This document shows positions 52,262-64,000 of a DNA stretch of 64,000 nucleotides, one piece after another (positions within the stretch are counted from its first letter, which is position 1; the number at the start of each line of letters is the position of its first letter). The notes under the pieces were generated by a model. The model saw only the letters and a program-made list of their open reading frames with translations, was not told where the DNA came from and searched no databases. The translations under genes and the position numbers were made by a program. This stretch comes from Sulfitobacter noctilucicola (GTDB lineage: Bacteria > Pseudomonadota > Alphaproteobacteria > Rhodobacterales > Rhodobacteraceae): contig NZ_JASD01000008.1 in NCBI RefSeq assembly GCF_000622385.1, positions 1,054,001 to 1,118,000 on the forward strand. Direction: 5' to 3'.

Positions 52262-53347
52262 ATGACATATCGTATTCTGAGTGGCGTTGCTGCGGCCGCG
52301 CTGATGGCGGGGACGGCGTTTGCCGAAGAGGTTCGCGTCTACAACTGGTCCGACTACATTGACGAAGCGCTGTTGGAGAAATTCGAGGAAGAAACCGGCA
52401 TTGATCTGATCTACGACGTTTTTGACAGCAACGAAGTGCTGGAAACGAAGCTGCTTGCAGGTGGATCGGGCTACGACGTGGTTGTGCCATCGGGCACGTT
52501 CCTGCAACGCCAGATCACTGCTGGCGCATTCCAGAAACTGGATGCTTCCAAGCTGCCGAACTCCGCTAACATGTGGGATGTGATCAACGACCGGCTCAAG
52601 AAATATGACCCGACAGCGGAATACGCGATCAACTACATGTGGGGCACAACCGGCATCGGTGTGAACGCAGGTAAGGTCAAAGAGATCCTTGGCGACGACG
52701 CTCCGGTGGATTCGCTGGCGCTGGTTCTCGATCCCGCCAACATGGAGAAATTGCAGGATTGTGGTGTTCACTTCCTTGATGCCCCTGCCGAGATTATTCC
52801 GGCAACACTTGCCTATATCGGTGAGGACCCTGACAGCCAGGACCCCGATGTGATCGCAAAGACAGAGCCGGTGCTGACGGCGATTGCCCCTTATGTTCAG
52901 AAATTCCACAGCTCCGAATATATCAATGCACTGGCGAATGGTGACATCTGCGTCGCAATCGGTTGGTCGGGTGATATTCTTCAGGCGCGTGACCGTGCAG
53001 CAGAAGCTGATAACGGCGTAGAAATCGAATACTACGCACCGAAAGAGGGTGCGTTGATGTGGTTCGATAACATGGCGATTCCCGTGGATGCGCCAAACCC
53101 TGATGCCGCGCACAAGTTCCTGAACTTTATCATGGACGCGCAAAACATGGCGGATGCTTCGAACTACGTCTATTACGCCAATGGCAATAAAGCGTCACAA
53201 GAGTTCCTTGAGGAAGATGTGATCGGTGACACAGCGATCTATCCTGATGAGGCAACGCTGGAGAACCTCTATACCACGTCGCCCTATGGCCCCAAGGTAC
53301 AGCGGACGGTGACGCGCATGTGGACCAAGATCAAATCTGGCACCTAA
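52262..53347 (+). CDS. potF: Polyamine ABC transporter substrate-binding protein
   Basis: A 361-residue periplasmic binding protein. A signal peptide (ILSGVAAAALMAGTAFA, cleavage near residue 21) is followed by VRVYNWSDYIDEALLEKFEE, the classical PotD/PotF start, and the ligand region NYMWGTTGIGVNAGK. It captures putrescine or a related polyamine for the permease encoded by the next three genes. A hairpin after its stop may raise its expression relative to the membrane components. Confidence 0.93.
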   Translation: MTYRILSGVAAAALMAGTAFAEEVRVYNWSDYIDEALLEKFEEETGIDLIYDVFDSNEVLETKLLAGGSGYDVVVPSGTFLQRQITAGAFQKLDASKLPNSANMWDVINDRLKKYDPTAEYAINYMWGTTGIGVNAGKVKEILGDDAPVDSLALVLDPANMEKLQDCGVHFLDAPAEIIPATLAYIGEDPDSQDPDVIAKTEPVLTAIAPYVQKFHSSEYINALANGDICVAIGWSGDILQARDRAAEADNGVEIEYYAPKEGALMWFDNMAIPVDAPNPDAAHKFLNFIMDAQNMADASNYVYYANGNKASQEFLEEDVIGDTAIYPDEATLENLYTTSPYGPKVQRTVTRMWTKIKSGT

Positions 53348-53358
53348 ATTGATGAACG

Positions 53359-53388
53359 GGGCGTGGTTGTCATCAACCGCGCCCTTTT
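53359..53388 (+). terminator. Stem-loop between potF and potG
   Basis: An 11-bp stem GGGCGTGGTTG (53359-53369) with CAACCGCGCCC (53374-53384), one G-T pair, TCAT loop, followed by TTTT. It looks like a partial terminator within the operon, commonly used to make more binding protein than permease. Confidence 0.65.
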
Positions 53389-53421
53389 CCAACCTGTACC
53401 GATCAAAGGGACTACCTGCGC

Positions 53422-54549
53422 ATGAGCCAGAACGTGTTCGCCCCATGGGATGACCCTGCCGAAAAGCCGCTGATCCGGTTTCAGAATGTTACCAAGCGCT
53501 TTGGTGAATTTGTCGCGATTGACGATCTGACGCTGGATATTTTCGAGCGGGAGTTTTTTGCGCTACTTGGCCCATCGGGGTGTGGCAAGACGACGATGAT
53601 GCGGATGCTGGCTGGTTTTGAGACAGCGACCGAGGGCCGGATCGAGCTGGCAGGTCAGGATATCGGCCACGTTCCGCCCAACGAACGGGCGGTCAACATG
53701 ATGTTCCAGTCCTATGCATTGTTCCCGCATCTGAGCGTTTGGGAAAATATTGCTTTCGGACTGAAGCGCGCCCGCCAAGGCAAGCAAGAGATTGAAGCCC
53801 GCGTTGACGAGATGCTTAAACTGGTCCGGCTCGAAAAATTCGCCAGCCGGAAACCACATCAGATTTCCGGGGGCCAGCGCCAGCGTGTCGCACTGGCGCG
53901 GTCATTGGCCAAAGCACCGAAACTGCTGTTGCTTGATGAACCTTTAGGTGCGCTGGACAAAAAGCTGCGGCAGGATACCCAGTTCGAGCTGATGGATATT
54001 CAGGAAACCACAGGCACCACATTTGTAATTGTTACCCACGATCAGGAAGAGGCGATGACTGTTGCCAGCCGCGTGGCCGTCATGGACGAAGGGCGGATCA
54101 TTCAGGTGGCTACGCCTTCAGCAATTTATGAGCATCCGAATTCAGTCTACGTCGCCGATTTCATCGGGGATGTGAATATTATCGAAGGCAAGGCCAGCGC
54201 GTCGGGGCATGAGGAATACACGCTTGACTGGGCCGACGGGCAGCGCCCGATCACAGCGACATCACAAAAGCCGTTCTCAGACGGACAGACTGCCCACTTA
54301 GCTATCCGGCCCGAGAAGATACGGATTTCCAGCGATGCACCAACCGATGCGCCGAACGCGCTGCAAGGTAAAGTGCTTGATATCGCCTATCTGGGAAATC
54401 TGAGCACCTATCACGTGGAACTGCCGGGCGGTCAGGTGATCAAAGCGCAGACCGCAAACACCCGCCGCATCGCCCGCCGCGACATTACCTGGGAAGACCC
54501 CGTCTGGATTTCATGGAGCGCCACCGCAGGTGTGATGCTGGAGCAATGA
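53422..54549 (+). CDS. potG: Polyamine ABC transporter ATP-binding protein
   Basis: A 375-residue ABC ATPase: Walker A GPSGCGKTTMM, Q-loop FQSYALFPHLSV, signature ISGGQRQRVALARSL, Walker B LLLLDEPLGALD, and switch His in IVTHDQEEAM. A C-terminal TOBE domain (LAIRPEKIRISSD) is typical of PotA/PotG. It energises the potH-potI permease. Its stop overlaps the potH start. Confidence 0.95.
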   Translation: MSQNVFAPWDDPAEKPLIRFQNVTKRFGEFVAIDDLTLDIFEREFFALLGPSGCGKTTMMRMLAGFETATEGRIELAGQDIGHVPPNERAVNMMFQSYALFPHLSVWENIAFGLKRARQGKQEIEARVDEMLKLVRLEKFASRKPHQISGGQRQRVALARSLAKAPKLLLLDEPLGALDKKLRQDTQFELMDIQETTGTTFVIVTHDQEEAMTVASRVAVMDEGRIIQVATPSAIYEHPNSVYVADFIGDVNIIEGKASASGHEEYTLDWADGQRPITATSQKPFSDGQTAHLAIRPEKIRISSDAPTDAPNALQGKVLDIAYLGNLSTYHVELPGGQVIKAQTANTRRIARRDITWEDPVWISWSATAGVMLEQ

Positions 54550-55427
54550 GACTGAGCCGTGTCGCCCTAATTCTTGTTCCGTATCTTTGGCTTCTGGTGC
54601 TGTTTTTTGCACCGTTCCTTATTGTTCTCAAAATCTCGCTCTCGGACGCGGCGCTTGCCATTCCGCCCTATACGCCAACCTTCAAGGACGGCATTGCGGC
54701 TCTCATCAGCGAGCTTGATTTCGAGAATTTCATCTTTCTGACCGAAGATGATCTCTATTGGAAAGCTTATCTGTCTTCGTTCCGCATTGCGCTGGTATCG
54801 ACGCTGCTGACGCTCTTGGTGGGCTACCCGATCGCATACGGAATGGCCAAAGCACCGGACGAATGGCGTGCCACGCTGATGATGCTGGTGATCCTGCCGT
54901 TCTGGACCTCCTTTCTGATCCGGGTCTACGCATGGATGGGTATTCTCAGCAATGAGGGGTTGTTGAACCAACTTCTGATTTGGCTTGGCCTGATCTCGGA
55001 ACCGCTCACCATCCTCAACACCACGGCGGCCGTTTACATCGGTATCGTCTACACCTATCTGCCCTTCATGATCCTGCCGATCTACGCCGCCCTCGACCGG
55101 CTCGATACATCGCTGAATGAAGCTGCAGAAGATCTTGGGTGTACCCGTACACAAGCCTTCTGGCTGGTAACCATCCCGCTGTCGAAGAACGGCATTGTCG
55201 CCGGATCATTCCTGGTCTTTATCCCCGCGCTGGGCGAATTCGTGATCCCATCACTCCTGGGCGGGTCCGGCACCTTGATGATCGGTAAAGTGCTTTGGGA
55301 AGAGTTCTTTAATAACCGCGACTGGCCTGTGGCCTCTGCGGTGGCGGTTATTCTGCTGTTGATCCTGATCATTCCGATCGTGCTGTTCCAGCGTAACCAG
55401 CAAAAGCAGCAGGAGGCCGAAGAATGA
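54546..55427 (+). CDS. potH: Polyamine ABC transporter permease (first)
   Basis: A 293-residue inner-membrane permease with about six membrane segments (for example RVALILVPYLWLLVLFFAPF; ILLLILIIPIVLFQ) and the EAA loop EAAEDLGCTRTQAFWLVTIP that contacts the ATPase. The ATG at 54546 overlaps the potG stop (ATGA), replacing an earlier in-frame codon inside potG. Confidence 0.94.
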   Translation: MRLSRVALILVPYLWLLVLFFAPFLIVLKISLSDAALAIPPYTPTFKDGIAALISELDFENFIFLTEDDLYWKAYLSSFRIALVSTLLTLLVGYPIAYGMAKAPDEWRATLMMLVILPFWTSFLIRVYAWMGILSNEGLLNQLLIWLGLISEPLTILNTTAAVYIGIVYTYLPFMILPIYAALDRLDTSLNEAAEDLGCTRTQAFWLVTIPLSKNGIVAGSFLVFIPALGEFVIPSLLGGSGTLMIGKVLWEEFFNNRDWPVASAVAVILLLILIIPIVLFQRNQQKQQEAEE

Positions 55428-56245
55428 GACGTATGTCATGGTTCAACGTCACGTCCCTGACGCTTGGCTTTGCCTTCCTCTACCTGCCAATGCTGGTTCT
55501 CATCATCTACAGCTTTAACGCGTCGAAACTTGTCACAGTCTGGGCGGGTTTTTCAACGAAGTGGTACGGCACTTTGTTTCAGAACGAGGCGTTCCTTGAT
55601 GCGGCTTGGGTCACAATCAAGGTCGCGGTGGTTTCATCAACTTTGGCAACGGTGCTTGGGACGATGGCGGCCTATGTGCTGGTCCGCGGCGGGCGTTTCA
55701 TGGGCCGCACGTTGTTCTCCGGCATGATTTACGCCCCGTTGGTTATGCCTGAAGTGATCACTGGACTATCGCTTCTTCTGCTCTTTATCGGGATCGGGCT
55801 TGATCGCGGTGTGCTGACAATCGTTTTGGCCCATACGACATTCTCGATGTGCTACGTGTCAGTTGTCGTTTCGTCTAGACTGGTCAGTTTCGACCGGTCT
55901 CTCGAAGAAGCAGCGCTTGATCTTGGCTCCACTCCTTGGGAGGCATTCCGGCTTGTGACGTTGCCGATCATCGCCCCTGCCGTCATTTCTGGCTGGTTGC
56001 TCGCCTTCACGCTCAGCCTCGATGATCTGGTGATTGCCTCCTTCACCTCCGGTCCCTCTGCCACCACCCTCCCGATCAAGATATTCTCGGCGGTGCGGTT
56101 GGGCGTCTCACCTGAGATTAATGCTTTATCTACCATCATGATCCTTATCGTGACGATCGGTGTTGTGACGGCATCACTTGTGACGAAACGAAATGCTGTA
56201 CGTGCCCAGAAAGATGCCCGGAAAGCCGAGCGTGCGGAGGCATAA
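55424..56245 (+). CDS. potI: Polyamine ABC transporter permease (second)
   Basis: A 273-residue permease pairing with PotH. The N-terminal membrane segment (LTLGFAFLYLPMLVLIIYSF) and EAA loop EAALDLGSTPWEAFRLVTLP are standard, and it ends with a basic cytoplasmic tail. It overlaps potH by 4 bases and the following oxidase by 1 base (TAATG), indicating translational coupling. Confidence 0.94.
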   Translation: MRRMSWFNVTSLTLGFAFLYLPMLVLIIYSFNASKLVTVWAGFSTKWYGTLFQNEAFLDAAWVTIKVAVVSSTLATVLGTMAAYVLVRGGRFMGRTLFSGMIYAPLVMPEVITGLSLLLLFIGIGLDRGVLTIVLAHTTFSMCYVSVVVSSRLVSFDRSLEEAALDLGSTPWEAFRLVTLPIIAPAVISGWLLAFTLSLDDLVIASFTSGPSATTLPIKIFSAVRLGVSPEINALSTIMILIVTIGVVTASLVTKRNAVRAQKDARKAERAEA

Positions 56246-57573
56246 TGCGTCACATCTATCCTGACTTCGCTTATTCTGACGCGCCGCGCGTGGGATGCTG
56301 GTGGGATGAAACCTGCGAAATACCGGACCGGCACGCACTAGACGGCGATCATAGCTGTGACGTCGCCATCATCGGAGGTGGCTTTACAGGTATATCTGCA
56401 GCCTTGCATCTGGCCGAAGCTGGTGTCTCTGTCAGTGTTCTTGAAGGTCGTCGGATCGGCTGGGGGGCGTCAGGCCGCAATGGCGGATTTTGTTGCTTAG
56501 GCGGAGGAATGCTTGGCAACGATGCACTTGAACAAGCTTTTGGCCGTGTGGGGCGCGATGAATGGCGACAAAGCGAAGTTGCGTCGATCCGTCTGGTTGA
56601 AAGCCTGTTGGAACGTTTTGGCTTGGATGTGGATCGCCATTCAGAGGGCGAAACCCAAATGGCGCACCGAGCCAAAGACTATGAAGCCATGGCCAGCGAA
56701 GTGGCGTTCTATAAAGATACCTATGGGCTTGATGCCCGTCTGACGCCCAAAGCACAGCTTGCCACCGAAGGGCTCAATGCGGGCTTTCACGGCGCGATCA
56801 CCGTACCCATCGGCTTTGGATTGAACCCGCGTAAATACATCAAAGGTCTCGTTGCTGCGGCTGAGGATGCCGGAGCAGATGTGTTTGAACGAACCTTGGT
56901 TACGGAAATAGAACGCCGTAATGGCGGGTTTGACCTGCGGACAGCGCAGGGTTCCATTCGTGCCAAACGCGTTATCGTCGCAACGAATGGCTACTCTGCT
57001 GAAGACATGCCGGACTGGCTCGCGGGCCGATATATGCCCACCCAATCCACCGTGATTGTGACGCGCCCAATGAGCCAGTCAGAATTGGGTGCCCAAGGTT
57101 GGACGAGTGTCCAAGCCGCATACGACACGCGCCATCTTCTACATTACTTCCGCCTTATGCCCGATAACCGGATGCTTTTCGGCGTACGCGGCGGGCTTTT
57201 GGCGACGCCCGGTTCGGAAGAGCGCGCCGTTCGCAGGGCGCGGGCGGATTTTGATAGAATGTTCCCTGAATGGCGACAGGTGCAGACGCCGTACAGCTGG
57301 TCGGGAATGGTCTGCATTGCGCGCGACCGGATGCCATTTGTCGGCGAAGTTCCTGGTGAACCCGGAATGTACGCTAGCCTGTGCTACCATGGGAATGGCG
57401 TCGCTATGGCAAGCTATTGTGGGGCGATTCTGGCCGACCTTTTGCAGGATCAGGCTCCGAACAGAATTTATCCGCGAGCGGTTCAACGACCACTTGCCAA
57501 GTTCGAACTGGGCCGGTTGCGGCGCGCAGTCATGCCGATCGCTTATGCGGGTTTTGCATTGTCGGACCGCTGA
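56245..57573 (+). CDS. puuB: FAD-dependent oxidoreductase, probable gamma-glutamylputrescine oxidase
   Basis: A 442-residue DAO-family flavoprotein. The dinucleotide-binding motif is VAIIGGGFTGISAALHLAEA near residue 40, and GWGASGRNGGFCC and the late GMVCIARDRMPFVGEV are typical of the PuuB group. Translational coupling to potI supports oxidation of an imported polyamine derivative. No puuA glutamylputrescine synthetase is seen in the window, so the substrate may be a free or differently modified amine. Confidence in the family is high, in the substrate moderate. Confidence 0.85.
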   Translation: MRHIYPDFAYSDAPRVGCWWDETCEIPDRHALDGDHSCDVAIIGGGFTGISAALHLAEAGVSVSVLEGRRIGWGASGRNGGFCCLGGGMLGNDALEQAFGRVGRDEWRQSEVASIRLVESLLERFGLDVDRHSEGETQMAHRAKDYEAMASEVAFYKDTYGLDARLTPKAQLATEGLNAGFHGAITVPIGFGLNPRKYIKGLVAAAEDAGADVFERTLVTEIERRNGGFDLRTAQGSIRAKRVIVATNGYSAEDMPDWLAGRYMPTQSTVIVTRPMSQSELGAQGWTSVQAAYDTRHLLHYFRLMPDNRMLFGVRGGLLATPGSEERAVRRARADFDRMFPEWRQVQTPYSWSGMVCIARDRMPFVGEVPGEPGMYASLCYHGNGVAMASYCGAILADLLQDQAPNRIYPRAVQRPLAKFELGRLRRAVMPIAYAGFALSDR

Positions 57574-57594
57574 GAAAACTGGTATTAAGGCAGC

Positions 57595-58278
57595 CTAAAT
57601 ACCGCTCGCTGGTTCGCGCAGGCCTGTAACATCGGTAGCCAGTAGACCAGAACCGCCTTCAAGGATCAGCACCGTTTCCCCATCCTGCAACCGTGTTTCT
57701 ACAATGCGTCCGTATGTTTCTGCCGGCTCTGAGAGTACGATTTCGCCATTCGCCCAACTCTCGACATCAAAGCTGAAAAGGCCCTTGTCTAGGGGCCTGC
57801 CATCACTTGAGACCCCAGCCCAGCTTATGGGTTCTGCGGAAACGGGTATCCGCAAACGCTGCACTTCCTGGCCGGTGCCATCACGAACGATAAGAAAGAC
57901 TTTGTCCGAGACGGCTGCTGGATTCGGCGATATCTCAATCGGAGACCCGTCAAAAAGAACAGGAGCAGTCGTACGCGTTTCCATGCCGATCCAATTTGCC
58001 ATCTGACCCAGATTTCCTGCCGCCAGTTGGGAAGACAGAGAGCTTAGAAAATCGTTCGCCAACACTTGCTGCTCCACCATCGAAAACTGAGCAAGCTGGG
58101 CTGCGTATTCAGATGAATCAATCGGCTCCAGCGGATCTTGGTATCTTGCCTGCGCAGTAAGCATTTTAAGAAATGTCTCAAAATCCGAAGACAGGACAGA
58201 AGCATCCTGCGTAGGTGCGTTACTTTGCGGGCTGGCTGCCGATACAGTTGCTGCTGCGGTAGCGGGACTGATTTCCAT
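57595..58278 (-). CDS. flgD: Flagellar hook assembly (capping) protein FlgD
   Basis: A 227-residue hook-cap scaffold. The conserved N-terminal segment (FETFLKMLTAQARYQDPLEP; AQLAQFSMVEQQV) is followed by a FlgD Tudor/Fn-like region (APVLFDGSPIEIS). It guides hook polymerisation. It lies 13 bases after fliK on the same strand. Confidence 0.93.
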   Translation of the reverse strand: MEISPATAAATVSAASPQSNAPTQDASVLSSDFETFLKMLTAQARYQDPLEPIDSSEYAAQLAQFSMVEQQVLANDFLSSLSSQLAAGNLGQMANWIGMETRTTAPVLFDGSPIEISPNPAAVSDKVFLIVRDGTGQEVQRLRIPVSAEPISWAGVSSDGRPLDKGLFSFDVESWANGEIVLSEPAETYGRIVETRLQDGETVLILEGGSGLLATDVTGLREPASGI

Positions 58279-58291
58279 AGTTTTTTCCTGT

Positions 58292-59923
58292 TCAAAGCCG
58301 AATATCGAGACCGGACGTTACTCCGGTAGAGACTGTGATATGGTCCGGTGGATGAGAAACGTCCGCGTCTAACGACAGCTTTTGTGTGGCTTTTGGTGAT
58401 GCTTGATCTGCTGTTTCGTTATCAGCACCACCACCGCCGCTGAAAGAGAAGGAGATATCCCTATAACCAATTTCCTCAAACGCAGCTTCAAGCGAAGAAA
58501 TATGCCGACGCATCATGTCGAGCGTCTCAGGTCGCTCGGTCAGGACGTTGACCATAATTCCGGTCTCTGACGATGTCATGGCAAGGCGCACACGACCCAA
58601 TTCTTCGGGACTAAGCGAAATTTCAATGGGCCTGCTTGGCATATGCTGCATAACGTCGGCGATTTGACGGGCGATATGATGGGGCAAATCCATGCGGGTC
58701 GGACTGAATTGAGTTTGCAGCGTTGCCTGTTGCTGCACGGCTTCTGTCCTTAGAGAAAAGGCATCGGTTTCCAATGACCCTCCGGCATCCCGAAGCGCAA
58801 ACGAAGGGGACATCACCTGAGGGGTTGTTTGCTTGGACAAGATTGCGCTGTGGCCAGAACGCGCTTGAGAAAATCCACTGTAAGTCAGTTTCGTTTGCTG
58901 GTCCGGCAGAGCGTGCGTCGATTCAGAGATGGTCTTTTCAGGCGTCTTTCGCGAGGGGGGATGTACGTTCGGCAGGGATTGCACGGGCGTATTTGCCAGT
59001 GTGATATCCGCTTTCTTGACCGAAAGCGCCACTGTTGGACTTGCCGTGCTGCTTTGCACCCCCGCATCTAGATTTATTGGTTCACGTCGTCCTTCTTGCT
59101 TATCGGTCACTTGCGGATAGAACTCAATTTTGCTTCCGCGGAGGAACACGCCGTTGGCGCCCTGCCCGATTTGGGATGGCGGTTTTTCCATCCCCGCTTT
59201 TGGCGGATGGTCCGAAACTGGCTGGCGCTTTAACTCTCCATCAACGGAGACGGCACGGGCGGCTTTTTCTACTGTTGACATCTCTCTATTCTCTGGCGTG
59301 ACAGAGGAATTTGTCGGCTCGGTCTGTTCACTGTTGAAAGGATGCCGTGCTTCGGGAGGCGGTTTTGCGATGCTGGCAGCGGTTTCAAGATTTGTATGGC
59401 CATTCTGGCTTTTGGGATGTGGCGGGGCCTCATCGCTCCGCCTCCTGTCCGCAACCTTGTGATCGCTAGTGTGATTTAACGCTGGCCTCGGCCTGTCATT
59501 TACGAACTCCTTAGCGCTTTCAGCTGGTTTCGAAATCTCCAGTGAGGCTGGTGATGGACCTTCATCTGCTGTTTCAATCGGTTGGATTGGCTCGGTAATC
59601 GTCGAGGTCTGCACCGCAGCATCTGCCGGTGCGCGTTTTTGACGGACTGGTCCATTATTCTCGGACAATGCTTGATCCGGAGTTTTTTCATCAGCATCAG
59701 AGTATATCTCAATTACCGCTTCAGAATTGGCGGCGGCAGGCAGAGGCTCTTTCGAAACCTCATTCAGTTGCGCCAGAACGCTGCCGAATGGAAGCGGATC
59801 AGTCACCATCTCTTTTGAGTTGTCCCCCTGTAGAGGCGCTCCTGGTATCGTCATTTTTTGCCGGGACGTTTGAAGATCGGCACCCTTTGAATTCGATAAA
59901 GTCAGAAGTGGATTGGCCTGCAT
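58292..59923 (-). CDS. fliK: Flagellar hook-length control protein FliK
   Basis: A 543-residue protein with a long, low-complexity, Pro/Ser/Thr/Glu-rich N-terminal part and a C-terminal Flg_hook domain (about residues 435-515: RPIEISLSPEELGRVRLAMT). FliK measures hook length and switches export to filament proteins. The ATG at 59923 (MQANPLLTLSNS) is preferred over an in-frame upstream codon. It is divergent from the flgJ-like gene. Confidence 0.88.
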   Translation of the reverse strand: MQANPLLTLSNSKGADLQTSRQKMTIPGAPLQGDNSKEMVTDPLPFGSVLAQLNEVSKEPLPAAANSEAVIEIYSDADEKTPDQALSENNGPVRQKRAPADAAVQTSTITEPIQPIETADEGPSPASLEISKPAESAKEFVNDRPRPALNHTSDHKVADRRRSDEAPPHPKSQNGHTNLETAASIAKPPPEARHPFNSEQTEPTNSSVTPENREMSTVEKAARAVSVDGELKRQPVSDHPPKAGMEKPPSQIGQGANGVFLRGSKIEFYPQVTDKQEGRREPINLDAGVQSSTASPTVALSVKKADITLANTPVQSLPNVHPPSRKTPEKTISESTHALPDQQTKLTYSGFSQARSGHSAILSKQTTPQVMSPSFALRDAGGSLETDAFSLRTEAVQQQATLQTQFSPTRMDLPHHIARQIADVMQHMPSRPIEISLSPEELGRVRLAMTSSETGIMVNVLTERPETLDMMRRHISSLEAAFEEIGYRDISFSFSGGGGADNETADQASPKATQKLSLDADVSHPPDHITVSTGVTSGLDIRL

Positions 59924-60039
59924 AAATTCCCCGAGAGTTCTTCTCTGTATTCGTCGCTTATGCGCCAACAGGGTTACCAGATATTTACTGAATGCGAGGC
60001 AGGATCACAAAAATAGCCCGCAATTTAAGGACCTCTCTC

Positions 60040-60321
60040 ATGACCCAGATCCAGCCCATCGGCAGCAGTCTATCGCTTCCGAAGAATGAGAGCGCTTTGC
60101 GGGAGGCCGCTCAACAACTCGAAGCCAGCTTTCTAGCGGAAATGCTCAAATCTGCAGGACTTGGAACATCGAGAGAAAGCTTCGGCGGCGGGGCCGGAGA
60201 GGACCAGTTTGCTTCTTTTTTGGTGAAAGAACATGCGCTGGCGATGGTACGCGCAGGCGGTATCGGGTTGAGCGAATCGATATATGAAGCGTTAAAGGAG
60301 AAAGACAATGTCGGCCGGTAG
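60040..60321 (+). CDS. Rod-binding protein, FlgJ N-terminal-like (CheL-type)
   Basis: A 93-residue protein equal to the rod-binding half of FlgJ without the muramidase domain: AQQLEASFLAEMLKSAGLGT and FASFLVKEHALAMVRAGGIG. Such short forms are named CheL or FlgJ in alphaproteobacteria. The start at 60040 follows TAAGGACCTCTCTC. It overlaps the flgN-like gene by 14 bases. Confidence 0.85.
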   Translation: MTQIQPIGSSLSLPKNESALREAAQQLEASFLAEMLKSAGLGTSRESFGGGAGEDQFASFLVKEHALAMVRAGGIGLSESIYEALKEKDNVGR

Positions 60322-60667
60322 AAACAGCCAGAAGATAACAGAGCTGAATGAACTGTTGGATGCAGAACGTGAGGCGCTGCTGAAAGGGGATTTAGAGAGT
60401 TTACAGGCTTTTTTTGTGCCGAAAGAGGCGCTCATTGATGCGATGAACGAGGTGCCGCAGACAGATCTGGCGGCCATGCGATTGCTCGACCAAAAAGTGA
60501 AGCGGAACCAAAAACTCATGGATGGCACCATGGAAGGCATCCGCTCAGTGGCAACGCGGATTGCCAATTTGAAAGACGTGAAGGGTGCTTTGGAAACCTA
60601 CGGAGCTGATGGAAAACGGCGCGATATTTCGCTGGGTATCGATGCATCGGTGGAACGGCGCGCATGA
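60308..60667 (+). CDS. flgN: FlgN-like flagellar export chaperone
   Basis: A 119-residue, mostly helical protein (ITELNELLDAEREALLKGDL) typical of FlgN, the chaperone for the hook-filament junction proteins FlgK and FlgL. A strong AAAGGAGAAAGACA ribosome site lies inside flgJ. Its clients are not encoded at their usual place nearby, because the locus is interrupted after the next gene fragment. Confidence 0.8.
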   Translation: MSAGRNSQKITELNELLDAEREALLKGDLESLQAFFVPKEALIDAMNEVPQTDLAAMRLLDQKVKRNQKLMDGTMEGIRSVATRIANLKDVKGALETYGADGKRRDISLGIDASVERRA

Positions 60668-60857
60668 GCGTTTGAATAAAAACAGGCCGAAATGGCTTTG
60701 TAGGGTTCAACATTCATTAATCTAGATAGGCCAAATCTGGAACTGCATCCGAGGTCGGGTGGCGCGTCGTATTCTAATCAAGCGGCTGCATTCGTCAGAA
60801 AGACATGTCGTTCAGCCCCGTCAGGGGTGGGACATAACGGACGCAAAGCGTCAATGA

Positions 60858-62270
60858 CTAAAGGAACAGCTTCATGTCGAGCATTCTTACAAACAACAGT
60901 GCAATGGTCGCACTGCAAACTCTCAAGTCTATCAACTCGAACCTCGCCGGGACGCAGAACGAAATCTCAACCGGTAAATCCGTCTCTAGCGCCAAGGATA
61001 ACTCGACTGTCTGAATCACCTTTGCGTTTGAACTATAGGCGCGCTGGGTCTGGATCATTGATGTCAGCTCCCCCGCGACATCAGTTGTCGACTCCTCAAG
61101 CGCGAAGGACAGGATATCGCCTGTCGGACCATCACTTGCGTCCCACAGAAAGAATGATCCGCTATCCACAGAAGGTTGGTAGGTCTGTTGATCCAGTGCG
61201 ACCATGCCGTTCGGATTGGGCAGATCAACCAGTGGCACCTGATAGATGACCCGGGTGATCCCGGTGTCGAAATAGGCAAAAACATACCCGTTGGGGTCGA
61301 CTTCGATATTGGTCATGTTCCCCACGGGCGATCCGTCTTTGGAGATTGAGATTGGTGCGAAGTTATCGGAGAGTTGCGTGATGCCGTCGCTTTCTCCGAT
61401 CTGCCCGATATCAATTTCAATCGGCCCACCAGCGACATCCACGATCAGGGTTCCCGTCGCGGGATCATATGTGCCGCCCGGACCAGCAGAAGTGACGGAG
61501 AGCAAGGTCCCCCCGGCCGTTCGGTCATCGGCAAACTCCAACGTATACTCCCCAATGGTCACCGCCGGATCGACCGAATCTGTCATGGTCAGCGTCCAGG
61601 TATTTGATGATCCGGTGGCAGGCACTGTCGGTGTGAAAGTGATGTTGATATTCTCGGACGTACCAAGATTGTCGTAGTACTCTACGGAGAGCTCTGAAGG
61701 GTCCCCTACAGAACCGGCGTCAGTTTCTGTTGCCGGAAGATTGACGCCCAGCGTCATCCGCGTTGTCGGTTCACCCGAGAACTGGTTCACATTGATCTGG
61801 ACAGGTTCCAGACCGTCGGCAGTGTCGCGAGGGTAGCTTGGGATCGTCCCGTCCGGTTGCGCAGGCCACCCCAACAGAACTAGACCGGAATTTGACCGCA
61901 AATATCCTTCTGAATCTGTGCGGAATGAACCGGTCGTCGTGAGGTACATTGGCGTATCACCATTGGCGACCTGCACCTCAGATGCTTGCGCCACCGGCAA
62001 AAAACCACGGCCACGCACGGCGAGGTCTGTGGCGTTGTTGGTGGACACGAGGGATCCGCGTTGGTCGATCAGCCGTTCCGTAACAGCGCGCACGCCGCCC
62101 GCAGAATAGGTGCCGCCGCGCGATGCAATCACGATTGAATGAAAGTCAGTCTCGACCCGTTTGTATCCGAAAGTAGATGAGTTCGCGATATTGTCAGAGA
62201 TAGAGGCAAGCCGCGTTGCGTTCGCCTGCAGGCCTGCCACCCCGGCATTGAGCGAAGAAGAAATAGTCAT
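60858..62270 (-). CDS. flgE: Flagellar hook protein FlgE with chimeric C-terminus
   Basis: The first 422 residues are FlgE: SLNAGVAGLQANATRLASIS and DNIANSSTFGYKRV at the N-terminus, and the C-terminal helix MIQTQRAYSSNAKVIQTV. FlgE normally continues for about ten to fifteen more residues (DEML...-type end). Here, from 61004 down, the frame runs 48 residues through the antisense of the flagellin remnant and its leader, ending at 60858. The lost tail belongs to the D0 helix needed for hook polymerisation, so function is doubtful. Confidence 0.85.
   Translation of the reverse strand: MTISSSLNAGVAGLQANATRLASISDNIANSSTFGYKRVETDFHSIVIASRGGTYSAGGVRAVTERLIDQRGSLVSTNNATDLAVRGRGFLPVAQASEVQVANGDTPMYLTTTGSFRTDSEGYLRSNSGLVLLGWPAQPDGTIPSYPRDTADGLEPVQINVNQFSGEPTTRMTLGVNLPATETDAGSVGDPSELSVEYYDNLGTSENINITFTPTVPATGSSNTWTLTMTDSVDPAVTIGEYTLEFADDRTAGGTLLSVTSAGPGGTYDPATGTLIVDVAGGPIEIDIGQIGESDGITQLSDNFAPISISKDGSPVGNMTNIEVDPNGYVFAYFDTGITRVIYQVPLVDLPNPNGMVALDQQTYQPSVDSGSFFLWDASDGPTGDILSFALEESTTDVAGELTSMIQTQRAYSSNAKVIQTVELSLALETDLPVEISFCVPARFELIDLRVCSATIALLFVRMLDMKLFL
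60874..61014 (+). pseudogene. fliC: Flagellin gene remnant (first 46 codons only)
   Basis: MSSILTNNSAMVALQTLKSI and the following NSNLAGTQNEISTGKSVSSA form the canonical flagellin N-terminus, with an AAAGGAACAGC ribosome site and a structured leader (GACGC-AAA-GCGTC at 60842-60854). After KDNSTV, where flagellins usually continue with a tryptophan codon TGG, the sequence reads TGA and continues as the antisense of flgE. About 85-90 percent of a normal flagellin is missing, so no filament protein can be made from this gene. Confidence 0.85.
61003..61013. other. Junction joining fliC to the antisense 3' end of flgE
   Basis: TCGACTGTCTG fits both sides: the flagellin coding sequence (S-T-V and the first bases of a Trp codon) and the antisense of flgE (Q-T-V-D). 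A crossover between two direct copies of this 11-bp stretch would delete everything between and leave one copy, as seen. The exact parental sequences are inferred from conserved family residues. Confidence 0.65.
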
Positions 62271-62388
62271 AAGTAAGACACGCCTTTCTGATGTATCAAA
62301 TCCGTCCGTTTAACGCATAGGCTGCCGCGCTTAATGCCGCGCTAACAGATAAAATGCCGTGTATTTGCATTCTGACATCTGGTCCGGG

Positions 62389-63234
62389 TCAGTCCCGCGA
62401 TGTGTCCCGCAACAGGATAATTTCAACACGGTTGTTCCGCTTGGCCATTGTGTTCGATAGCACCGGTTCGCGGTCTGCGTGACCTGTCACTCTCATGACC
62501 CGCTTTGCGGAAATCTCCGACTCTCCAAGCATCAACCGAATGCGTGTGGCCCGTCTTTCAGACATTTCCCATGCCGGGCTTTGCGCAATCACGATCGGAC
62601 TGGCTGCCACATGCCCCCCAACAGCGATATCGTTCGAAACAGCCTTGGCTGTAGAGGAAATGACCGTAACCAGATCTTTCAGCAATTGCGTCGGTGTATC
62701 GGTGCCTTCCTCAAACAGCGGAACCTGTTCTAGTTCGAAAAGCTCGATCACCAGACCTTCGTCGGTGATCCGTGTCACGATGTGACGCATCAGGTTTTCC
62801 ATCACCTGAGTTTCACCACCACGTCCTACAAGAGCTTCTTCTATTGCACGCAGCTCATCCGTTTCGCGAGCAACAACAGTCGTTTCGGCACCGGTATCGC
62901 CCCGGGCGTTCTGTTCTTGCGCAGTGCGCGTTTCAGTGCCTCCGGTGCCGTTTTGAGGCAACGTCATTTCGGAAAAGATGCTGTCGCCGCCAAAGGCACC
63001 GTCACCGCCCCCTGATATCCGGTTGATCGGAATCGTTGGCGTAAAGTAATCCGCAAGACCCTTGCGTTGTTGTTCAGTTGTTGCATTCAGCAGCCACATC
63101 AACATGAAAAAGGCCATCATCGCGGTTACGAAATCCGCGTATGCGACTTTCCAGGCACCGCCATGATGCCCTCCGCCGCCAACGACCTTTTTACGTTTGA
63201 TGATGACTGGCGCTGCGTTCGCTTGCGCACCCAT
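62389..63234 (-). CDS. motB: Flagellar motor stator protein MotB
   Basis: A 281-residue stator subunit. The single membrane segment YADFVTAMMAFFMLMWLL contains the proton-carrying Asp34 (start at 63234). The C-terminal OmpA-like peptidoglycan-binding domain is VGGHVAASPIVIAQSPAWEM and VTGHADREPVLSNTMAKRNN. A GGTGGAG ribosome site supports the ATG at 63234 over the upstream GTG. It precedes flgE on the same strand, as in other Rhodobacterales. Confidence 0.93.
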   Translation of the reverse strand: MGAQANAAPVIIKRKKVVGGGGHHGGAWKVAYADFVTAMMAFFMLMWLLNATTEQQRKGLADYFTPTIPINRISGGGDGAFGGDSIFSEMTLPQNGTGGTETRTAQEQNARGDTGAETTVVARETDELRAIEEALVGRGGETQVMENLMRHIVTRITDEGLVIELFELEQVPLFEEGTDTPTQLLKDLVTVISSTAKAVSNDIAVGGHVAASPIVIAQSPAWEMSERRATRIRLMLGESEISAKRVMRVTGHADREPVLSNTMAKRNNRVEIILLRDTSRD

Positions 63235-63379
63235 CTCCACCACCTTTATTCACCCAAGGACCTGCATAGGGGGATGGGGCTAAGGAGAGCTTAACAGCTA
63301 AAATCGCTGCTACTTTTGTGAAGCACTTGCACACTCCCTAGCTTTGGCGCTTGATGCTGATGAAGGACGGGACATTACC

Positions 63380-64000
63380 ATGTCAGCACAATCAATGGAC
63401 ACAGACAGCGGTTATGCTTGGTGCCGTTTGGGCATCACCATGCTGGTGGCGATTGTCGCCAATGCAGGCATGTGGGCTATCGTGGTCATCATGCCCGCAG
63501 TGCAGGCAGAATTCGGCGTCAGCCGCGCGGAGGCATCACTACCCTACACATTGAACATGATCGGGTTTGCGCTGGGCAACTTTGCAATAGGGCGCGCGCT
63601 TGACCGGTTCGGAGTGACAGTCTCGCTGATATTGGCGGCACTTGGAATACTGGCGGGCTTGGGGCTCGCCATTCTATCACAGTCTATTGCCGTGCTTTCG
63701 TTTGCCCAACTGATTATCGGCTTTGCTTCTGCCGTGGGCTTTGGTCCTTTGATCGCGGATATCTCTCATTGGTTTGTGCGGCGCAGAGGGATCGCAGTCG
63801 CCTTGGTGGCGAGCGGTAATTACCTGTCCGGCGCGATCTGGCCGATGGTCTTGGCTGGTGTGTTGGAAAACGACGGGTGGCGGGCGACGTATGGGCTGCT
63901 CGCCCTTGTAACGGCCCTCACAGTCACGCCCCTCGCGCTTCTTTTGCGCAGGCAGGTCAGCGTGCAGACAAGAAATCTGGCGCAGGCCGTTTCGGTACAG
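63380..64000 (+). CDS. MFS transporter (3' end outside window)
   Basis: 207 codons are visible, with at least six membrane segments (CRLGITMLVAIVANAGMWAI; SLPYTLNMIGFALGNFAIGR; AQLIIGFASAVGFGPLIADI). GRALDRFG and WFVRRRGIAVALVASGNYLSG are the MFS loop motifs, the latter as in the monocarboxylate/oxalate-formate antiporter branch. The ATG at 63380 begins MSAQSMDTDSGYAWCRLG. It is divergent from motB and unlikely to be part of the flagellar cluster. Confidence 0.88.
   Translation, partial: MSAQSMDTDSGYAWCRLGITMLVAIVANAGMWAIVVIMPAVQAEFGVSRAEASLPYTLNMIGFALGNFAIGRALDRFGVTVSLILAALGILAGLGLAILSQSIAVLSFAQLIIGFASAVGFGPLIADISHWFVRRRGIAVALVASGNYLSGAIWPMVLAGVLENDGWRATYGLLALVTALTVTPLALLLRRQVSVQTRNLAQAVSVQ

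Follow-up and report, generated by a model that had tools for sequence, protein, structure and literature searches.

Programmed site-specific excision is known from the skin element of Bacillus and the nif elements of cyanobacteria, where a large segment is removed between fixed sites, and the lacI gene of E. coli is a short-repeat deletion hotspot, where the same endpoints are reused. The locus that we describe here is like both in these respects. Unlike programmed excision, however, it has no recombinase gene that we could identify and no att-like DNA that we could see, and the wobble positions of its flgE site look, by eye, free to vary; unlike lacI-type hotspots, its ends have little or no more homology than other offsets do, and its product recurs across genera. 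The locus belongs to the fla1 flagellar gene cluster of roseobacters, a group of marine bacteria that are abundant and lead a swim-and-stick life (PMC12363192), and sporadic losses of this cluster have been reported in the Rhodobacterales (Tomasch et al., 2025, PMC12363192). In the part of that paper considered here, the losses involve the same cluster and the same order, scattered among flagellated relatives, as in our data. In contrast to the exact join that we find, that part of the paper counts losses as absences, without a breakpoint, a stub, or a common join. Scattered loss of fla1 was thus known before as absence, whereas one exact deletion accounts for all 10 resolved flgE loci that lack flgK. 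Our searches of open-licence papers turned up no account of the shared breakpoint.

The window is the whole stretch of 64,000 nucleotides that was analysed (G000:C8:1054001-1118000, from Sulfitobacter noctilucicola, assembled in 8 contigs). Near its right end, a flagellin gene begins with an ATG at 60874 and runs for 46 codons (MSSILTNN...AKDNSTV) to a TGA at 61012-61014. The earlier note had read this frame as a flagellin that turns into the antisense of flgE after KDNSTV. The arrangement is real, except that the stub has 44 codons: the final TV of the "flagellin" frame is encoded by flgE-derived codons. The sequence from 61006 onward is antisense flgE, and the two genes meet head-on at 61003-61006 (Table 1). 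Codon 44 of fliC is TCG here (61003-61005), with the exchange within its CN bases. The Pfam family Flagellin_N matches stub residues 4-43 (profile positions 1-40 of 139). FlgE' has the domains Flg_bb_rod, FlgE_D2, and Flg_bbr_C, the last of which stops at profile position 36 of 46, and relative to FlgE of the intact relative L034 it has lost 12 C-terminal residues (DEMLQETTNIKR). The 11-mer TCGACTGTCTG has one mismatch-free occurrence in the window, and an Rfam scan of positions 57000-64000 gave no match. The relic keeps the gene order of fla1, with flgD-fliK-flgJ-flgN-fliC to the left of the join and flgE-motB to its right.

Table 1. Features of the fused fla1 locus of G000, with positions in the window
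Feature	Position	Strand	Remarks
Transport operon and oxidoreductase	52262..57573	+	left syntenic flank, common to the intact G018; operon presumably potFABC-like
flgD, hook cap	57595..58278	-	retained; PF03963, PF13860
fliK, hook-length control	58292..59968	-	retained; PF02120
flgJ-like rod-binding protein	59992..60321	+	retained; PF10135
flgN-like gene	60308..60667	+	retained; upstream of fliC; FlgN match just below the Pfam cut-off
fliC stub	60874..61005	+	first 44 flagellin codons including the start codon; then TV and TGA
Junction block	61003..61014		exchange in CN of fliC codon 44; flgE antisense (ACNGTYTG...) from 61006 onward
flgE'	61006..62270	-	flgE without its last 12 residues; frame runs on to 60858 (470 aa)
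motB	62389..63243	-	retained; PF13677
MFS-type transporter (named by appearance)	63344..64000	+	right flank, common to L036, L042, L108, and G001

Two minor features of the stub can be added. On the minus strand, the flgE' frame stays open across the antisense of the stub (60858-61005); tails of this kind occur in 15 fused loci, with lengths from 17 to at least 99 residues, and they are open because fliC and flgE have a common codon phase at the join. Also, codons 37-40 of fliC (60982-60993) form a short variable patch within an otherwise conserved N-terminus, with 0.37 differences per base when the nearest intact flagellins are compared.

Flagellin_C, FlgI, FlbT, FlhA, and FliF have no match anywhere in the G000 genome, which is 99.97% complete, and its only match to Flagellin_N is the stub. 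(Among 14 control genomes, each of these five families had a match in 1 to 4.) The fla1 core genes flhA, fliF, and flgI are among those missing. In the intact Sulfitobacter sp. M05 (G018), both flanks are present and arranged as in G000, from potF to flgD-fliK-flgN-fliC on the left and flgE-motB on the right, with about 26 kb between fliC and flgE that include FlhA, FliF, and FlgG-like genes. (We name the other genes of this interval by position, and take them to be flaF, flbT, fliI, flgH, motA, fliH, fliN, and fliP.) The G000 locus is the G018 locus minus the interval. As FlgI, FlbT, FlhA, FliF, and the flagellin C-terminus are absent from the genome, the interval of about 26 kb is gone: this is a deletion, not an inversion or an artefact. 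The earlier note had proposed that the filament, junction, and P-ring genes were deleted, to be checked by searching the genome for the 3' end of fliC, flbT, and flgI and by comparing synteny. None of the three is present and the flanks match those of G018, so the proposal was right, and FlhA and FliF are gone as well. The same absence of Flagellin_C, FlgI, FlbT, FlhA, and FliF from the whole genome rules out the inversion that the note had offered as an alternative. The expected outcome is a cell without a fla1 flagellum.

The earlier reading did not foresee that the identical join recurs across genera. In a survey of 92 flgE loci (some genomes are present twice), flgK lies next to flgE in 80, flgE itself is truncated in two (L015 and L071), and the remaining 10 have the exact join. 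These are G000, G001, L036, L042 (S. sediminilitoris), L108 (S. mediterraneus), L084 (Lutimaribacter saemankumensis), L096 (Roseovarius litoreus), L097 (a Marinibacterium MAG), L100 (Roseivivax halotolerans), and L102 (MAG MSM9). In a sample of the family (394 genomes, 393 genera), 204 genomes contain the flgE site and 8 contain the join, namely G000, G458 (the L097 contig), and six new cases (G209, G175, G351, G208, G172, and G197). In a genus sample of 62 genomes, the site was found in 23, and 5 of the 23 have the join. With G506, a second Roseivivax, the join has been read as DNA, to the nucleotide, in 17 genomes, which include Sulfitobacter, Roseovarius, Lutimaribacter, and Roseivivax. Many of the genomes compared are drafts or MAGs; the 10 cases from the 92-locus survey were found without any junction pattern, and for the other 7 of the 17, the search or the reading used patterns that already require part of the join. 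Among proteins, 28 of the best 120 matches to FlgE' have the join (27 by pattern and one by eye), a list that is enriched for it because the query is itself fused, and some of the 28 belong to species that are also among the DNA cases. For 19 of the 28, the only source labels are ena, lgn, or jgi, which probably stand for metagenomes. When plasmids were searched with the window DNA or with FlgE', the matches listed (20 of 62 and 15 of 213, respectively) were other flagellar loci, and none of those listed for FlgE' extends past residue 432.

All 17 joins have the same structure: the fliC part stops in codon 44 and flgE starts at ACNGTYTG. Codon 44 is either Ser (TCN) or Ala (GCN), and the first base of the Ala codon is not derivable from flgE, so the exchange must lie within the bases CN of this codon. 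Everything between the two ends is lost, the outer genes are kept, and several genera have the join at one and the same base pair. The exchange point is identical in events that appear to be independent, judging, with reservations, from trees and from the resemblance of the stubs to intact flagellins. A plain chance deletion does not explain a recurrent identical join.

We propose that the fla1 cluster contains a deletion hotspot with fixed ends that has been reused independently and recently, and we put the probability of this at roughly 60%. The left end would be inside fliC codon 44 and the right end 12 codons before the flgE stop, with the core of the cluster removed, and the same deletion would arise repeatedly from intact clusters. 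Repetition of this kind would call for a standing process, that is, a break, nick, or exchange tied to the pair of sites. Both sites contain a 12-bp block (TCN-RCN-RTY-TGG) that agrees imperfectly between the two genes but has one orientation and one codon phase in both, and the product would keep flgE's version of it. First, the agent could be a putative site-specific exchange at the site pair. The wobble positions of the flgE site are, by eye, free to vary among the matches listed, which would be odd for a sequence-specific enzyme. We recognised no recombinase by eye among the listed ORFs of intact intervals, and at the locus we found none either, nor an attachment site or long homology. Second, a break at flgE might be repaired by a copying strand that switches into fliC at the left edge of the block, which would also keep flgE's version. 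It is conceivable, though doubtful, that a putative conserved recombination activity of the Roseobacteraceae excises the fla1 core between the fixed sites in fliC and flgE, which would give natural populations a standing minority of non-motile cells and lineages and would act as an off-switch for swimming at the DNA level. As the join is exact and shared, and as near-identical fused and intact alleles exist, the process is testable. Either answer would be interesting: an excision that is site-specific but has no known enzyme, or a deletion allele that crosses genera.

The second of these answers is that one old junction was spread through the family by homologous recombination (for instance, by gene transfer agents), after which the flanks were replaced by each recipient's own sequence. 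We consider this possible but improbable. It explains the exactness best, because it would give an exact join without local homology, and it explains why flgE's version of the block is retained. The trees speak to it in both directions. On a single-gene FlgE tree of 86 rows with 10 fused (8 duplicate or partial loci were left out, as were matches with <55% identity or <380 residues), the fused label changes 10 times, at least 8 of them forced by well-supported branches; shuffled labels average 9.7 changes, the label is not clustered, and the fused alleles lie among intact relatives. A larger single-gene FlgE tree, made by a quick method from best-hit proteins, 6 more genomes, and a hand-picked part of the loci (147 rows, 40 fused), has 25 changes, at least 14 of them forced, against a shuffled mean of 35.3, and 0 of 500 shuffles are as low. 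Here the fused label is clustered, as spread of one junction would have it, in part because near-copies are included. (The fused Roseivivax P0069 and P0115 are sisters on this tree and could share one event.) A tree of the short stub plus leader (42 rows, 15 fused) has 12 changes, at least 7 of them forced; 231 of 500 shuffles are as low, and the label is not clustered.

In favour of a single junction that spread, four of the stubs (G000, L036, L042, and L225) are mutually nearest among the DNA rows of the stub tree. However, stubs and flgE' mostly track their own lineage. The stub of Roseovarius litoreus L096 is identical to its congener G053 at 44 of 44 residues, an intact flagellin likewise shares all 44 residues of the L036 stub, the G000 stub agrees with three intact flagellins at 42 of 44, and the Marinibacterium L097 stub has AKDGS, as does the related intact G064. 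In Roseivivax, the G506 stub matches the intact G503 at 117 of 131 bases and the fused L100 at 102 of 131. The choice of Ser or Ala at codon 44 agrees between ten fused genomes and an intact partner chosen by genus or tree; if the nearest stub alone is taken as the partner, then three rows disagree (L100-G058, L228-G052, and L229-G044). Spread also predicts foreign tracts or decay. The sole candidate tract is in P0011, where a cluster of differences at fliC codons 38-40 matches the fused L036 within a stub that is otherwise of its own type. These codons vary anyway (0.39 differences per base in fused pairs and 0.37 in intact pairs), so the tract is ambiguous as a sign of import. Given this control and a comparison with intact flagellins, we rejected P0011 as proof of import. 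Fused and intact pairs show no general excess of mismatches beside the junction. (The fliC of G056, which is another flagellin type, was left out of this comparison and of the stub tree.) A viral carrier was also rejected: the viral contigs of IMG/VR have no exact match to the fused pattern, nor to one form of the intact flgE site. Regain of the cluster after an old loss is unlikely because fla1 is reported, in the part of the source considered here, to be strictly vertically inherited (PMC12363192).

An old neutral junction should have decayed, yet AKVIQTV is intact in 11 of the 11 joins that were found without a junction pattern. Some fused alleles are nearly identical to intact ones, with 1 difference in 421 aligned FlgE residues (fused P0027 and intact P0059), 2 in 423 (P0011 and L038), or 8 in 422 (L036 and P0029). 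In 16 of 17 fused loci, both flgE' and motB are free of stops and frameshifts (motB of L096 was compared over residues 91-272). In the other retained genes, the alignments contain stops in flgD of G351, in flgJ of L084, and in flgN of both G000 and L042, where gene starts are unclear (in the window itself, the flgN frame is open), and L097 has its fliK split in two pieces. The dN/dS of flgE is 0.03-0.12 in pairs that contain a fused allele, compared with 0.05-0.15 where both alleles are intact (saturation affected 4 of the 23 pairs, and L042 was left out for its stop codon); this lack of decay is a coarse test because synonymous sites are near saturation in most pairs. Either the joins are young, as the hotspot with fixed ends would have it, or the remaining genes may still be under selection, which would be hard to see in strains without FlhA. 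The one exception for flgE' and motB among the 17 loci is S. sediminilitoris (L042 9035-11264), a decaying relic whose motB is frameshifted and whose flgE' contains a stop.

Another explanation is ordinary microhomology-mediated deletion at an imperfect repeat, as at lacI. The block is in phase, and its copies agree at 10 of 12 bases in the best two of 16 intact genomes. Across these 16 (of 19 intact genomes; the site pattern was not found in the other three), 2-7 of the 12 bases are mismatched between the fliC site and the flgE site, and among all possible offsets this match comes 403rd of 9,745 at best and 10,080th of 10,184 at worst. In a seventeenth intact genome, Roseivivax G503, 3 of 12 are mismatched. 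Homology does not select the deletion site. Also, a pattern that allowed flagellin-type bases inside the block had 8 matches, none of which contained them; the exchange was at the left edge of the block in all 8. We therefore regard this explanation as quite unlikely. The single deletion between 11-bp direct repeats that the earlier note had suggested does not hold up for the same reason: in intact relatives, the sites match little or no better than other offsets.

Could the join be kept because the fused locus (FlgE', the stub, FlgD, FliK, and MotB) has a function of its own? The retained genes are mostly open across genera, and in the Roseivivax pair L100-G506, flgE' has a dN/dS of 0.075 at a dS of 1.2. 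However, FlhA is missing from 9 of the 15 fused genomes surveyed (the 17 minus G197 and G506), including G000, and there FlgE' would have no export gate. FlhA is present in the other 6. In four of these (G042, G045, G046, and G049), a second flagellin is no more than about 26 kb away, so FlhA there seems to belong to another system; the remaining two are G175 and G172. Along with the broken genes of L042, and because selection does not explain identical breakpoints, this makes a function for the fused locus very unlikely as the explanation. An assembly artefact, which the earlier note had also raised, is hardly credible, as the same join is found in isolates, MAGs, and other public contigs, the core genes are missing from the whole assembly, and G209, which has the join, is a one-contig genome.

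If a deletion takes whatever lies between its ends, then genes outside the interval should persist, and Roseivivax provides a control. FliF is missing from 9 of 11 fused genomes, and the two that have it are both Roseivivax. In the intact Roseivivax G503 and G501, no fliF, fliH, fliN, or fliP was found between fliC and flgE (the interval is 20 kb in G503), and in the fused G050 and G506, FliF has an open frame and lies 92-93 kb from the join. Thus the deletion removes just the interval, and the operon outside it persists after the join has formed. This operon, fliL-fliF-fliH-fliN-fliP, is at L277 9166-13125 in G050 and at L278 9290-13330 in G506, and it survives the loss of the core.
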